Shown here in pieces: positions 7,252 to 13,049 of a stretch of 64,000 bases of DNA. The translations under genes were made by a program, and so were the position numbers. Position 1 is the first letter of the stretch. Every line of letters begins with the position of its first letter. The notes beneath the pieces were generated by a model. The model did not search any database. It was not told where the DNA came from and worked only from the letters and a program-made list of their open reading frames with translations. This DNA is from Amycolatopsis alkalitolerans (lineage in GTDB: Bacteria; Actinomycetota; Actinomycetes; Mycobacteriales; Pseudonocardiaceae), in contig NZ_VDFW01000028.1 of the NCBI RefSeq assembly GCF_006152065.1, positions 1-64,000 of the forward strand. Reading direction: 5' to 3'.

Positions 7252-8226
7252 TTACTCGCCGCGGTCTTGTTGTTCGGCGAGGAAGCGTTCGAACTCGGCG
7301 CCCAGCTCCTCGGCGGTCGGCATCTGGGCGACCTCATCGGCCAGCAGGTTCTTGCGGTCCATCGCCTCGGCGAACGTGTCGTACTGCCGCTCGAGCGCGC
7401 GTACCACCTCCGCGACCTCGTCGGATTCGGCGACCTGGCGCTCGATCTCGGCGTCGGTGCGCCGGGCCGAAGACACCAGGGCCTCGTCCGGGATCGACAG
7501 GCCGGTGGTCCGCGAGACCGAGCCCAGCAGCGTCAGCCCGGCGGCCGGATACCGCGACTGCGCGAGGTAGTGCGGCACGTGGGCGGCGAATCCCACCGCG
7601 TCGTGGCTGGACTCCCCGAGCCGGAACTCCACCAGCGAGGCCGCGCTGCCGGGCACCTGCAGCTGGTTGAACACGGGCCGGTAGTCCCCGATCAGCTCCC
7701 GCCGGGTCGCGTGCGCGGTCACCCCGAGCGGCCGGGTGTGCGGGGCGCCCATCGGGATCCCGTGGAAGTTCACCACCATCCGCACGTGCCAGCGGTCCAC
7801 GAGGCTGCGCACCGCCACGGCGTACCGCTCCCATTCGTGATCCGGCTCCGGACCGGTGAGCAGCAGGAACGGCGTGCCCGCTTCGTCGTGGAACAGGCGC
7901 ACGACCAGTTCGGGTGCCTCGAAGGTCTCCCAGTGGTCGGCGGCGAACGTCATCATCGGGCGGCGGGCCCGGTAGTCGACCAGGCGGTCCACGTCGAACC
8001 GGGCGGCCACGGTGTGCTCGAACTGGGACTCGAGATGCTCGGTGACGGTCTGGCCCGCCATGCCGGCGTCCACGAACCCGTCCAGCTGGTGCAGCAGCAC
8101 CGCGCCGGACAGTTCGGGAAGCTCCGAGTCCACCTCGTAGAGCTCCTCGGGGTCGAACACCATAGCCTCCTGCGTCGGGTCAAGCTGTCCTTCTTCAGAA
8201 TGAACGTAGCGTGGGGGCGAATTCAT
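7252..8226 (-). CDS. PAC2 (proteasome assembly chaperone-like) family protein
   Basis: A 324-residue PAC2-family protein, recognised by AVLLHQLDGFVDAGMAGQTV, LVDYRARRPMMTF and the DHWETFEAPELVVRLFHDEAGTPFLLLTGPEPDHEW stretch (given in pieces by the family profile). Actinobacteria carry such ATP-grasp-associated or proteasome-linked proteins, whose function is unsettled. The C-terminus is acidic and helical. The ATG at 8226 gives the N-terminus usual for the family; an internal ATG at 8163 has AGGAGG only two bases away and is an alternative. It converges on the family-3 glycosidase gene. Confidence 0.85.
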   Translation of the reverse strand: MNSPPRYVHSEEGQLDPTQEAMVFDPEELYEVDSELPELSGAVLLHQLDGFVDAGMAGQTVTEHLESQFEHTVAARFDVDRLVDYRARRPMMTFAADHWETFEAPELVVRLFHDEAGTPFLLLTGPEPDHEWERYAVAVRSLVDRWHVRMVVNFHGIPMGAPHTRPLGVTAHATRRELIGDYRPVFNQLQVPGSAASLVEFRLGESSHDAVGFAAHVPHYLAQSRYPAAGLTLLGSVSRTTGLSIPDEALVSSARRTDAEIERQVAESDEVAEVVRALERQYDTFAEAMDRKNLLADEVAQMPTAEELGAEFERFLAEQQDRGE

Positions 8227-8405
8227 CCCGCGACGGGCAGCGGCCGGGCAACCCCCCTACTGAACCAAAACGCTGGGCCGGAAGGACGAAACCCGCACTT
8301 GTCGGCGCGTTGTGATGATACTTTGGGTGTCTCCCTGTCACAGCGGCCGCGAGTCCGCGGCGGAACCCGCCTATGTGCGCCGCCGCGATTTCCGGGGGGT
8401 GCACG

Positions 8406-9971
8406 ATGAATTTGGCGAATCAGGCCCAGCGACTCCTCGCCGGGATGGCAACGGATTCCTTCGGGGATTTCTCCGCATCACTCTACGAAACGGGCCGGGT
8501 GGCCGCGCTGGCGCCCCTCCTGCAGGGCCACGAAGGCAGAATTCGCTTCCTCCTCCACGAACAGGGAAGTGACGGAAGCTGGGGCGGGCCCGGGGAGTAT
8601 GCCCTGCTACCGACGCTGTCGGCGACCGAAGCCCTGTTCACCGAGCTGTCCCGGACGGCGGACACGCGGGTGGGCACGGCCGTACACCGAGGACTGGAGG
8701 CGCTGTTCGCGAAGCTTGGCGGCGAAGTGTCGCTGCCGGACACCGTGGCGATCGAGCTCCTCGTGCCGTGGCTGGTGTCCGCGCTCAACACCCACCTCGC
8801 CGCACTCGAGACGAAACCGTTGCCAGGATTGGAGATCTGGCGTGACGGCAAGCGGCTACCCTGCCCCGGCGGCACCTATCCCGAACTCCTGGTGCACCTG
8901 CGTGAGGCGGTCGAACACGGTGCGGTGCTGCCCGAAAAGCTCTGGCACTCGCTGGAAATGCTCGGTCCTCTCGCGCAGGGCGCTTCCTTCGTGCGAGCGG
9001 GCCGGTTCGGCGTCGGTTGCTCCCCCGCCGCGACCGCGGCCTGGTTCGGAACCGGGGCGCGGCGAGGGAATCCGCATCCGGGCGTGCGGTACCTGGAACA
9101 GGTTCAGGCTCGTCACGGCGGTCCGGTTCCGGTCGCCGCGCCGCTGGACGTGTTCGAACGCGCGTGGGTGCTCACCACGTTCACCGACGTCGGCCTGCCC
9201 GTGGCGGTCCCGTTCGAGCTCGTCGAAGGTCTGCGGTCGGCCTTCGGGGAGTCCGGGGTGGCCGGTGGCGCGGGTCTGCCGCCCGACGCCGACGACACGT
9301 CGACCGCGCTGCACGCGCTGGCGAACCTCGGCATGCCGTATCCCCTGGATTCCCTGTGGGAGTACCAGGTGGACGAGCACTTCAGCACCTTCCCGGAGGA
9401 GCGCACGCCTTCGGTGACGACCAACGCGCACGTCCTGCAGGCGCTCGCGGCGTACCCGCGCGGTGATCGCCGCACGGCCGACACGATGCTGGGGCTCACG
9501 GAATGGTTGTGCGGCCAGCAGCACGCCGACGGCAGCTGGACCGACAAATGGCATGCCTCGCCGTACTACGCCACTGCGACCTGCGTCGTCGCGCTCGCCG
9601 GCTGCGGTGAAAGCACGGCGGCGGAACGCAAGGCGGTGCGCTGGGTGCTCGAGACCCAGCATGCCAACGGTGCCTGGGGCTTCTGGGACGGTACGACGGA
9701 GGAAACCGCCTTCGCCGTGCAGATCCTGTTGCGCGCCAAAGGCATCCGTCCGGACGCTGCGATCGAGCAGGCGGCGGCCCGGGGCTGCTCGTACCTGCTC
9801 GAAGCCGGTGACGCACCCTCCCCGCCGCTGTGGCACGACAAGGACCTGTACACCCCGGGCCGCATCGTGCGCGCCGAGACCATCGCCGCGTTGCACGTCG
9901 CCGGGACCAATCCGCGCGTCGCCGCCCGTCTCGCCCGGTCACACGCCGAACGCGCGGGGCGGACGGCGTGA
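8406..9971 (+). CDS. Class II terpene (diterpene-type) cyclase
   Basis: A 521-residue beta-gamma-fold protein of the squalene-hopene/prenyltransferase type. The protonating motif DxDD is present as DADD at 294-297 (PPDADDTSTALHAL). QW-type repeats occur near 53-60 (QGSDGSWG), 371-378 (QHADGSW) and 418-424 (QHANGAW). Length and motif match bacterial class II diterpene cyclases (copalyl or halimadienyl diphosphate synthases) and drimenyl diphosphate synthases, rather than the longer hopene cyclases. It should cyclise GGPP or FPP by protonation and keep the diphosphate. The ATG at 8406 follows a GGGGGGT ribosome site by about five bases. Its stop overlaps the P450 start by one base (TGATG), so the two are coupled. 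No GGPP synthase is nearby. Confidence 0.88.
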   Translation: MNLANQAQRLLAGMATDSFGDFSASLYETGRVAALAPLLQGHEGRIRFLLHEQGSDGSWGGPGEYALLPTLSATEALFTELSRTADTRVGTAVHRGLEALFAKLGGEVSLPDTVAIELLVPWLVSALNTHLAALETKPLPGLEIWRDGKRLPCPGGTYPELLVHLREAVEHGAVLPEKLWHSLEMLGPLAQGASFVRAGRFGVGCSPAATAAWFGTGARRGNPHPGVRYLEQVQARHGGPVPVAAPLDVFERAWVLTTFTDVGLPVAVPFELVEGLRSAFGESGVAGGAGLPPDADDTSTALHALANLGMPYPLDSLWEYQVDEHFSTFPEERTPSVTTNAHVLQALAAYPRGDRRTADTMLGLTEWLCGQQHADGSWTDKWHASPYYATATCVVALAGCGESTAAERKAVRWVLETQHANGAWGFWDGTTEETAFAVQILLRAKGIRPDAAIEQAAARGCSYLLEAGDAPSPPLWHDKDLYTPGRIVRAETIAALHVAGTNPRVAARLARSHAERAGRTA

Positions 9972-11215
9972 TGAACCGGACGGAATTCGAACTCGCCTTC
10001 CGCACGCTGCCCTTCCTCGACGCGCATGCCGACCTGCCGGCAGGAGTGCTGCGGCAGAGCGCGGAGCCGCAGCAGCGGTACCTCGTGTGGGCGCCGGAAG
10101 CCGTCGCCGAACTCTTCCACGCCGATCAGCACCTCGGACATCCCGGCAGCCGGTCGTTCCGTCCCCTGCTGGGTCCGCGTTCCCTGCTGTGGCAGGAAGG
10201 ATCGCGTCACGCGCAGTACCGCCGCGTGCTCGGCGCACCGCTGCGCGGCCGGAACCTGCGGGCCTACCACGGCACGATCGCGGAGACGGTGGGCACGGCG
10301 ATCGACCAGTTGCGGCCGGGCGACGAACTCCGGATCGCCGACTGGACCCGGCAAGTCGCGCTGCGCGTGATGGCCTCGATCGTGTTCGGGCGCGCGCAAA
10401 GCGACTTGCTGGCGCCGTTCGCCCATTGGATGGACCGGGCGCTCGGTTCGCGCTACCGCACGCTCGCCTACCGCTACCTCCGCAGCCGACTTCCATTGCT
10501 GGACAATGAAGTCGCGGATCGGTTTGTCCACAGTGCACGGACAGCGGCCCGCGAGGACCCCACGACACTCGCGGGGCGGCTGCTGGCCCCAGGCGGTCCG
10601 TTCGCCGACATCGACGACGGCGAACTGCGGGACCAGCTCGTCTCGCTACTGTTCGCAGGACACGAGACCACGGCGTCGACGGCGGCGTGGGCGCTGTTCT
10701 GGCTGGACCGCAACGAGTCCATACGTGACGGCCTCCGCGCCGAGCTCACCACCACGGGCGAAGACGGCTTCGACGCCGAACTCGTTCCGCTGCTGAACGC
10801 GGTGGTGCAGGAGACGCTGCGGATAACCCCTCCAGTTCCGGCTGCCGGAAACCGTGTGCTGCCAACGGGATGCCCGCACGCCGGTGGGGAACTTCCGGCC
10901 GGGACCGTGCTCACCCCGAGCATCTACCTCGCCCACCATCGCGCGGAGTCCTTTCCGGACCCGCACCGATTCGACCCGGACCGGTTCCTGCACGGCCGTG
11001 TTCCCGCGGACCGGTACTTCCCGTTCGGGGGCGGGATCCGGTACTGCCTGGGCAGCCAGCTCGGACAACTCGAGGTCCGCATGCTCGTGGCCGCGCTCCT
11101 GCGCCGCCGCGAAATTCGCTGCGTGAATCCGCGGGCGGGCGTCCCGCAATTGCGCGGGCACGCGATGGCGCCATCGCCGAAACTGCGAATGAAGGTGATG
11201 TCTTGCCGCGATTGA
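9971..11215 (+). CDS. Cytochrome P450
   Basis: A 414-residue soluble P450 with the I-helix AGHETT (229-234), the K-helix ETLR (281-284) and the heme-binding FGGGIRYCLG with Cys359 as thiolate ligand. Bacterial P450s of this size take electrons from ferredoxin, but no ferredoxin gene is adjacent. The start codon overlaps the cyclase stop (TGATG), and the last 13 bases overlap the UbiA gene. It is therefore almost certainly part of the same transcript and likely to oxidise the terpene skeleton made by its neighbours. The oxidation position is unknown. Confidence 0.95.
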   Translation: MNRTEFELAFRTLPFLDAHADLPAGVLRQSAEPQQRYLVWAPEAVAELFHADQHLGHPGSRSFRPLLGPRSLLWQEGSRHAQYRRVLGAPLRGRNLRAYHGTIAETVGTAIDQLRPGDELRIADWTRQVALRVMASIVFGRAQSDLLAPFAHWMDRALGSRYRTLAYRYLRSRLPLLDNEVADRFVHSARTAAREDPTTLAGRLLAPGGPFADIDDGELRDQLVSLLFAGHETTASTAAWALFWLDRNESIRDGLRAELTTTGEDGFDAELVPLLNAVVQETLRITPPVPAAGNRVLPTGCPHAGGELPAGTVLTPSIYLAHHRAESFPDPHRFDPDRFLHGRVPADRYFPFGGGIRYCLGSQLGQLEVRMLVAALLRRREIRCVNPRAGVPQLRGHAMAPSPKLRMKVMSCRD

Positions 11216-12117
11216 CCACGCGATCGACATGGCAGGATTTCGCCGTCGTACACCGTTTGCAGTTTCCGTTGCCCATCAATTACCTGTGCTACTCCATTTG
11301 GGGGTGCCTGTTTGCCGACCCCGATCCGCGCCGGTTACTCGATGCACCCGCCCTCCTGGCGATCGCCGCCGCGCTTCTGCTCATCGTGGCCCCGCTCGCG
11401 CTGAATGTCGCCGTCGACATGGCGACCGACGAGGCGCACGCGGACAAGCGATACCTCGCCGGCGCGGCCGGGCGATTCGGCAGTGCACGCGCGTTGCGCT
11501 GGGCCGGCGCCGAGATGGTCGCCGCTGTGGTCGCGGTCCTCGCGATCGGGATCGGCTGGGGACGGTGGTGGCCGCTCACGGTGGCCGAGGCGATCATCAT
11601 CGCGCAGCTGATGTACAACCTCGAGCCCGCGCGCCTCAAACGGCACGGGCTGGTGGGTTCGGCCGCCTTCGGGGCCGCCTCGGTCGGGCTGCCCTGCCTG
11701 CTCGGGTACACGGCCGTGACCTCCGCCGTCGCGACACCGATCTGGCCGATCGCCGCCGGGGTCGCCGTGCTGTCCACCGGGCGCACGGTGTGGTGGGCCA
11801 TACCGGACTACGACGCCGACACCGCGACCGGGGTCGGCACGCCGACGGTGCGCTACGGGCAGGCCCGCGCCTTGGTGCTCGCCTGCGCGATCCTGCTCGC
11901 CGGACTGCTGCTGACGGGCTGGGGACTGTGGTGGCGTTACGGGGTGTGGGGTCTGCTCGGCGTCGCGGCGCATGCCGCGTTCCTCGGGCTGGCGCTGGCA
12001 CAACTGCGGCCGACGCTGCGGGGAAGACCACCACGCGCGGGCCCCATGCTCAGGCGCACGCTACCGGTGGCCACGCTCGGCGAGGTCATGATCGCGGTGG
12101 TACCGCTTGTCGCCTAG
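11203..12117 (+). CDS. UbiA-fold prenyltransferase or UbiA-type terpene cyclase
   Basis: About 304 residues, with seven to nine hydrophobic segments. Both Mg-diphosphate motifs are kept: NVAVDMATD (68-76, NxxxDxxxD) and DYDAD (202-206, DxxxD). A YNLEPARLKRHG loop typical of the UbiA superfamily is also present. The family moves prenyl groups onto acceptors, but PtmT1 of platensimycin biosynthesis is a UbiA-fold ent-atiserene synthase acting after a class II cyclase. As no alpha-fold class I synthase is present here, this protein is the best candidate to ionise the cyclised diphosphate. The TTG start at 11203 is chosen for GAAGG five bases upstream; it overlaps the P450 gene by 13 bp. Confidence 0.85.
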   Translation: MPRLTTRSTWQDFAVVHRLQFPLPINYLCYSIWGCLFADPDPRRLLDAPALLAIAAALLLIVAPLALNVAVDMATDEAHADKRYLAGAAGRFGSARALRWAGAEMVAAVVAVLAIGIGWGRWWPLTVAEAIIIAQLMYNLEPARLKRHGLVGSAAFGAASVGLPCLLGYTAVTSAVATPIWPIAAGVAVLSTGRTVWWAIPDYDADTATGVGTPTVRYGQARALVLACAILLAGLLLTGWGLWWRYGVWGLLGVAAHAAFLGLALAQLRPTLRGRPPRAGPMLRRTLPVATLGEVMIAVVPLVA

Positions 12118-12935
12118 GCCTTGCGGCCGAGTCCGGCGTACATGTGCGCAAGCTCGGGGTTGCGGCCCAGCTCCTCCTCGGTGAGCGGATGCCACAGGAG
12201 CACCGGGACGACGCCGGGCTCGACCACCTCCGCGTCACCGAAGTACCGTTCGAGCTCGTCACGCTCCCGCAGGGTGACGACCGGTGGCTGCCCGAACATC
12301 CGGCTGAACATGTCGAGCCCTTCGCTCAGCTGCGAGTTCTCGCCACAGTGCGACATACCGAGGTAGCTGCCGCTGGGCAGCGCGGCCAGGTACGAGGCGA
12401 CGAGTCCGCCGGGATCGTCGGAGTCGGGCAGGTACAGCAGCGTCTCGATGGCGAGCAGTGCGACCGGTTCGGTGAAGTCGATGAGTGCGCGCGTGCGGGC
12501 GTCACCGAGCACCGCGTCCCGGTCGCGGACGTCGGCGTGCAGGTAGACCGCGTTGTCGTTATCGGAGAGGATGGCGCGCCCGTCGGCGACCACACCGGGA
12601 TCCAGGTCGACATACACGACACGGCATCCGGCGTTCAGCTCCTGCGCGACCTCGTGCACGTGACGCTGAGTCGGGATACCCGAACCGAGGTCGATGAACT
12701 GGCGGACGCCGTGTTCGACCAGGTAGCGGATCATCCGCCCGGTGAGCGCACGCGAGGCGCGGACGAGGTACGGGATGTGCGGTGCGCACAGCTCGATCCG
12801 CCCGGCGTACTCGACGTCGTCCGGGCCGTGGTTGTGACCCTCGAGCCAGCAGTCGTTGACGCGGGCGATGCTCGGGTATCTCGTCATGGTGCCATCAGCA
12901 CCGCCGCGGCCAGGTGCTTCGGTAGGCGAGGCCAC
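12114..12935 (-). CDS. SAM-dependent methyltransferase, DUF574 family
   Basis: A 273-residue member of the actinobacterial DUF574/S-adenosyl methyltransferase family. It begins with PSIARVNDCWLEGHNHGPDD, corresponding to the family's ARxYDYxLGGxxNF phrase. The SAM-binding glycine motif is QFIDLGSGIPT, followed by RVVYVDLDPGV. The substrate is unknown for nearly all members. It converges on the UbiA gene, and the two stop codons share the palindrome CTAG at 12114-12117. A role in tailoring the terpene is possible but not shown. The GTG at 12935 has GGAGG ten bases upstream; an ATG at 12887 is an alternative. Confidence 0.85.
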   Translation of the reverse strand: MASPTEAPGRGGADGTMTRYPSIARVNDCWLEGHNHGPDDVEYAGRIELCAPHIPYLVRASRALTGRMIRYLVEHGVRQFIDLGSGIPTQRHVHEVAQELNAGCRVVYVDLDPGVVADGRAILSDNDNAVYLHADVRDRDAVLGDARTRALIDFTEPVALLAIETLLYLPDSDDPGGLVASYLAALPSGSYLGMSHCGENSQLSEGLDMFSRMFGQPPVVTLRERDELERYFGDAEVVEPGVVPVLLWHPLTEEELGRNPELAHMYAGLGRKA

Positions 12936-12963
12936 TTCCGGTACGCCTCCTCCAGGTGCTCTC

Positions 12964-12998
12964 CACCTATCGGTGACTGATCTTCAGTCACCGAGGTG
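12964..12998 (-). terminator. Strong hairpin between metH-type and DUF574 genes
   Basis: TCGGTGACTG (12970-12979) and CAGTCACCGA (12985-12994) form a perfect 10-bp stem with a five-base loop. Outer CACC/GGTG arms extend it past a two-base bulge. It lies 56 bases past the homocysteine methyltransferase stop and 29 bases before the DUF574 start, both on the minus strand. It therefore fits an intrinsic terminator without a U-tract, or alternatively an operator for the methyltransferase gene. Confidence 0.6.
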
Positions 12999-13049
12999 AG
13001 CGATTCTACTGCGATATGCCGCGGTGTGGAGCGTTGCGTACCTCGGACT

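Follow-up and report, generated by a model that had tools for sequence, protein, structure and literature searches.

We consider a compact group of genes in a 64,000-nucleotide stretch of the Amycolatopsis alkalitolerans genome (contig NZ_VDFW01000028.1, hereafter the window; the host assembly comprises 84 contigs and 6.78 Mb), and we propose that they probably form a four-gene diterpenoid pathway, in which a class II cyclase converts geranylgeranyl diphosphate (GGPP) to copalyl diphosphate (CPP), a membrane protein of the UbiA fold acts as the class I diterpene synthase, and a cytochrome P450 and a methyltransferase follow. To judge from the sequence, the product is most likely an oxidised, methylated diterpenoid. 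GGPP would be supplied by a prenyl diphosphate synthase whose gene lies elsewhere in the genome; protonated by the soluble class II cyclase, it would give CPP, probably ent-CPP. The membrane UbiA protein would bind the diphosphate via Mg2+ on its two Asp motifs, ionise it and close further rings, and so take over the part of the customary alpha-fold enzyme, a role that has been reported for PtmT1 in the platencin pathway. The hydrocarbon would next be oxidised by the P450, and the methyltransferase would then methylate the oxidised product; the order of these last two steps, like the substrates and the stereochemistry, we infer.

The cyclase gene (8406..9971, forward strand; ATG at 8406, stop at 9969-9971) encodes 521 residues with a match to the Pfam family SQHop_cyclase_C (E = 4e-11) and is assigned to the CPP-synthase type of class II diterpene cyclase. 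It carries the DADD motif, which holds the acid that would start the cyclisation, at residues 294-297 (9285..9296). Its stop codon shares the letters TGATG with the start of the P450 gene (9971..11215, forward strand; ATG at 9971, stop at 11213-11215; 414 residues; Pfam p450, 7.5e-47), which holds AGHETT, ETLR and FGGGIRYCLG, the three of which we take to be P450 motifs; a heme motif with its Cys ligand is present. The P450 gene in turn overlaps by 13 bp the gene of the UbiA-fold membrane protein (11203..12117, forward strand; TTG at 11203, stop at 12115-12117; 304 residues; Pfam UbiA, 1.3e-21), the proposed class I diterpene synthase. All start codons are as read off the sequence. The initial annotation of this DNA had described these three genes, and their positions, overlaps and identities are reproduced here. 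It took them, however, for the whole set and overlooked a fourth gene, that of a methyltransferase of the PF04672 family, dependent on S-adenosylmethionine (12114..12935, reverse strand; Pfam, 8.2e-65; GTG start uncertain), which lies tail-to-tail with the UbiA gene, the two convergent frames overlapping by 4 bp at the UbiA end. Its statement that a prenyl diphosphate synthase and a class I synthase are missing agrees with searches by hidden Markov models (HMMs), which covered the leading 30 kb of the window and found neither there. For the function of the absent alpha-fold enzyme, the UbiA protein itself is the best candidate.

The linkage of these genes is conserved well beyond the window. 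Among 19 genomes of the genus, the cyclase is present in 18, the UbiA protein in 18, and the cyclase, P450 and UbiA genes are adjacent in 17, so that their belonging together, previously concluded from the overlaps, is not a matter of chance; in one genome (G001) neither cyclase nor UbiA was found by this search. Of 297 genomes of the family, 65 have the UbiA protein and 83 the cyclase; the latter is present in 62 of the 65 genomes with the UbiA protein versus 21 of the 232 without it. One of the three UbiA genomes that lack the cyclase is represented by a stretch (L273) that breaks off within the cyclase gene. Cyclase, P450 and UbiA genes follow one another in this order on a single strand in 44 of 46 loci of a first set, all with both cyclase and UbiA in the stretch, and in all 33 cyclase-bearing loci of a second set (36 fetched), with a convergent methyltransferase gene within 400 bp in 34 of 46 and 25 of 33 respectively; the two sets share genomes and are not independent. 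When open reading frames are clustered across 30 loci of 14 genera, a procedure that undercounts and in which opposite-strand frames inside cassette genes were set aside, the cyclase and the methyltransferase are each found in 12 genera, the P450 and the UbiA protein each in 11. No other gene is common to more than five genera in this comparison, and no gene for making an acceptor recurs. Other neighbours are rejected as members: the genes for PAC2, homocysteine methyltransferase and TetR are shared in the genus and were not found next to the cassette in the other genera compared, while the flanking genes for SAICAR synthetase, an AI-2E transporter and ceramidase occur in only four to five genera and look like ordinary synteny.

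When the cyclase is compared with known synthases, as the initial annotation had suggested, the best match in the PDB is the ent-CPP synthase PtmT2 (5bp8, E = 2.2e-112). Residues H342, K381, D112/E117, H181 and Y482 align with H342, K383, D114xxxxE, H180 and Y489 of Tpn2, where, according to a section of PMC9814783, the His activates the Asp, the Lys holds the diphosphate, DxxxxE is a metal site, and the second His and the Tyr are important. The same section relates the residue at the place of Tpn2 G485 to the skeleton, Asp giving labdane and Gly giving clerodane. The cyclase has Asp478 here (9837..9839; D502 of PtmT2 by alignment), within WHDKDLY, and PtmT2 likewise has Asp, within WHDKDIY. 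Across 51 UbiA-linked cyclases (the window, 45 loci and 5 further loci) the Asp residues of the DxDD motif are kept in every one, and the G485 place is occupied by Asp in 47, by a gap in three and by Gly in one (L090), that is, by Asp in 47 of the 48 with a residue. By alignment, every catalytic residue checked fits a CPP-type cyclase. A plasmid search with the cyclase gave 136 records, every one below 60% identity.

Because the cyclase is kin to PtmT2, and because a prenyl diphosphate synthase gene adjoins the cassette in Streptomyces jumonjinensis (L214) and in genome G155 (L092), GGPP is the substrate that we infer. The initial annotation had allowed a drimane-type sesquiterpenoid made from farnesyl diphosphate (FPP) beside a diterpenoid. 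The diterpenoid is likely; the drimane we regard as very improbable, even if the host has several prenyl diphosphate synthases (four PF00348 matches, none on the contig of the window), none of which can be tied from its partial sequence to one product length. The nearest relative of the cyclase is the GGPP-using PtmT2, and the bacterial drimenol synthases reported in PMC9128629 are of the haloacid dehalogenase superfamily, a different protein family.

We turn to the second cyclisation, for which the UbiA protein is proposed. Its fold, assigned by homology, and its two motifs place it in the UbiA superfamily: N-x3-D-x3-D (N68, D72 and D76; 11404..11430) and D-x3-D (D202 and D206; 11806..11820) are both invariant in all 26 rows of the UbiA alignment. 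These motifs, being kept, would also suit a housekeeping enzyme of the menaquinone, heme or arabinan pathway that merely adjoins the cyclase, and a menaquinone- or heme-type enzyme was the finding by which the initial annotation would have been overturned. This is extremely improbable. Three other UbiA genes of the host score above the NCBIfam thresholds for heme O synthase, MenA and decaprenyl-phosphate phosphoribosyltransferase and cover these roles, while the UbiA protein of the window reaches at best 55 bits, below a cut-off of 269, against the equivalogs MenA, heme O synthase and DPPR synthase; its gene, moreover, overlaps that of the P450, in an order conserved in 44 of 46 loci. A plasmid search with the protein gave no match.

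Evidence for the proposed role comes from the choice of partner beside related cyclases. Out of 123 stretches fetched, 118 hold a class II cyclase, and partners were scored within 6 kb of it by six-frame HMM searches. A UbiA protein alone accompanies 45 of these cyclases, a class I synthase alone 47, both only one (L228), and neither 25. The margins of this count mean little, because the stretches were chosen by the presence or absence of UbiA (40 of the 123 were fetched through a UbiA match, many others for lacking one); the near-absence of loci with both is the point. With the exception of L228, the UbiA protein is thus encoded beside the class II cyclase where an alpha-fold synthase would otherwise stand. 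Seven of the class I partners, and that of L228, were confirmed as PF19086. In a tree of the cyclases (122 rows; a quick method with long-branch warnings and with support only from SH-aLRT, the Shimodaira-Hasegawa-like approximate likelihood ratio test; the short cyclases L169, L179 and L256 dropped), 50 of the 51 UbiA-linked cyclases fall in one clade of 60 rows (support 80), class I-linked rows also lie inside it, and the partner label needs at least four changes. The clearest swap is that of the UbiA-linked cyclases of Streptosporangium (L193, L216), which are sister to class I-linked cyclases of Streptomyces (L235-L237) with an SH-aLRT of 98. Near-exclusion together with such swaps is as expected if the UbiA protein performs the class I step.

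A sample of 392 Streptomyces genomes shows a similar division. The cyclase is present in 24 of them; among the 22 stretches fetched a class I synthase occurs in 17 and a UbiA protein in none, and the remaining two cyclase genomes, G984 and G688 (S. jumonjinensis), have the UbiA protein. They also give the only two strong matches to the UbiA profile in the sample; six further matches are weak (68-76 bits), and no class II cyclase was found in the stretches fetched for these six. Within the host genome, PF19086 matches only two domains of one 721-residue frame on another contig. No other class I partner was thus found by PF19086 (PF03936 was not searched). This family is reported in PMC10055836 to cover bacterial type I synthases well and not to hit those related to UbiA.

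The closest structures to the UbiA protein are, however, the UbiA prenyltransferases AfUbiA and ApUbiA and an archaeal lipid synthase, and its sequence matches in the PDB are chlorophyll a synthase and digeranylgeranylglyceryl phosphate synthase. The protein could accordingly be a true prenyltransferase that places CPP or GGPP onto an acceptor, for instance an aromatic ring, nucleoside, sugar or lipid, the resulting meroterpenoid then being modified by the P450 and the methyltransferase. The transfer of a cyclised diphosphate does exist, a homologue of the adenosine-prenylating Rv3378c being present in 44% of Rv3377c-type cyclase clusters in the section of PMC9814783 that counts them. We nevertheless hold a prenyltransferase to be unlikely here: the lack, across genera, of an acceptor-making gene that recurs with the cassette speaks against a meroterpenoid, and the UbiA protein occupies the place of the class I synthase beside related cyclases.

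The methyltransferase is the member of the proposed diterpenoid pathway that is newly recognised. The host genome has 14 matches to PF04672, two of them adjacent pieces. In a tree of this family (54 rows; again a quick method with SH-aLRT only and long-branch warnings; pieces of 600 bp or less, such as the split frames in L077, L174 and L176, and L270 dropped), all 33 methyltransferases within 400 bp of a UbiA gene, together with three that lie farther away in or near such clusters, fall into a single clade (support 100), from which 12 others of the host are separate. The 6 kb around the cyclase contain a methyltransferase gene in 35 of the 45 loci with UbiA only, in one of the 25 with neither partner and in none of the 47 class I loci. 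The closest solved PF04672 proteins are labelled in the PDB as uncharacterised or of unknown function.

A comparison of the window with its relatives, as identity in 200-bp steps, links the methyltransferase to its neighbours from another side. Relative to L067 (G012), the identity is 76-90% at 7600-10000 (PAC2 and the cyclase), 49-72% at 10000-13000 (the P450, UbiA and methyltransferase genes) and 84-85% from 13200; relative to L069 (G009), the same three stretches give 73-88%, 46-71% and 79-84%. Within the divergent block L067 and L069 share 68-86% identity, and the identity of the window with L054 (71-89%) and with L055 (64-86%) is even across the whole comparison. L067 and L069 group with the window in the cyclase tree and not in the trees of the UbiA protein and the methyltransferase (the UbiA tree joins long rows to MenA and was not used for rooting). 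These patterns show that the P450, UbiA and methyltransferase genes diverged as a unit beside a cyclase that was kept, most simply by exchange, which speaks for counting the methyltransferase among the members and for CPP as the intermediate in common.

Several observations weigh against this reading of the cassette. The Asp motifs do not separate a UbiA cyclase from a prenyltransferase, our search found no member of this UbiA family with a known activity, and the likeness to PtmT1 is one of reported role and gene context, not of sequence comparison. The exclusion counts are not independent, because 50 of the 51 UbiA-linked cyclases fall in the one clade of moderate support; in L228 (G984, Streptomyces) a UbiA protein occurs together with a class I synthase that scores 37.1 bits with PF19086 (cut-off 23.7); and for 25 of the 118 cyclases the surrounding 6 kb contain neither partner, in some cases because the contig ends. 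Within the genus, G007 keeps the cyclase and P450 while its UbiA relative is at a distance of about 2 Mb, and in the family two Lentzea-type genomes (L271 and L272; G137 and G289) have the UbiA protein with no cyclase or P450 found, perhaps as eroded cassettes. The methyltransferase is absent in 8 of 17 genus loci (L060-L066 and L068), and is also absent in Streptosporangium, S. jumonjinensis, L092, L204 and L228.

The pairing of a class II cyclase with a UbiA protein is known. For PtmT1 and PtnT1, PMC4004862 and PMC10847714 describe a class I activity that turns ent-CPP into ent-atiserene, and PMC10301674 assigns them to the UbiA type; among 342 actinobacterial ent-CPP synthase clusters a section of PMC9814783 reports a type I synthase in 67% and a "likely UbiA cyclase" in 14%. 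The platensimycin, platencin and platensilin clusters (ptm/ptn) of Streptomyces platensis thus resemble the cassette: their ent-CPP synthase belongs to the same family and is used with a class I synthase of the UbiA type, which in ptm/ptn is reported to make ent-atiserene. In contrast to the four genes of the cassette, ptm also has the alpha-fold PtmT3 and, from what PMC10847714 describes, at least 14 tailoring enzymes. The 14% share the same enzyme pair and may include loci like the present one, although the section in question gives no gene order, methyltransferase or product. Terpentecin (tpn) and pimarane-type clusters have the two-step cyclisation followed by P450 oxidation; their class I synthase is alpha-fold instead of UbiA, and the cassette cyclase has Asp and not Gly at the place of Tpn2 G485. 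StlTC of S. lydicus, a bacterial enzyme of the UbiA type, is reported to produce the diterpene lydicene, with no class II partner named in that passage (PMC10301674). A literature search with little reach into subscription journals brought up no account in which the four-gene set or its product was recognised. The cassette is an uncharacterised, widely conserved system of a known kind, with the methyltransferase as a newly recognised member and a membrane class I synthase as its likely second cyclase.

Some further loci are recorded here in their own right. The class I gene of L228 is divergent and stands beside its own P450, perhaps as a separate small cluster. In L167 (G032) the cyclase adjoins the methyltransferase, and the P450 and UbiA genes are missing from between. 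Six UbiA relatives whose stretches contain no class II cyclase (L070, L072, L073, L091, L201, L202) form one group in the UbiA tree, and L072 and L091 lie in genomes G007 and G032, whose cyclase has no UbiA alongside. In other actinobacterial families of the class (L119-L137), a class II cyclase clusters with a class I synthase and a P450; in L119, the sole one scanned, the genes that follow code for a histidine kinase with a NIT domain, a Roadblock protein and a GTPase-like protein, an arrangement that resembles a conservon. Eight class II cyclases with neither UbiA nor class I partner (L141, L149-L152, L238, L240, L241) form a clade (support 100) with Glu for the central Asp, the third Asp of the motif gone and the DxxxxE site lost. 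The giant gene adjoining the cyclases of L150 and L151, the two neighbours scanned, is a modular polyketide synthase, and the stretches of L141, L149 and L238 hold frames of 2569-2840 residues. These eight cyclases may act on a polyketide and not on a prenyl diphosphate.

UbiA-type terpene synthases have rarely been characterised, and this cassette is small enough to be expressed whole, with dozens of natural variants to choose from. Related cyclases that work with UbiA and with class I partners provide a built-in comparison, with which one can test what makes a UbiA protein a cyclase or a prenyltransferase, and the cassette suggests that PF04672 methyltransferases have a part in biosynthesis. 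More tentatively, and at somewhat less than even confidence, we suggest that the cassette may make a near-universal diterpenoid of one Amycolatopsis group, through a large and unstudied family of diterpene synthases in the membrane that yield new skeletons. The same CPP would be made everywhere, the P450-UbiA-methyltransferase module would be exchanged as a unit between lineages to give different methylated products in related species, and PF04672 would gain a role in biosynthesis.

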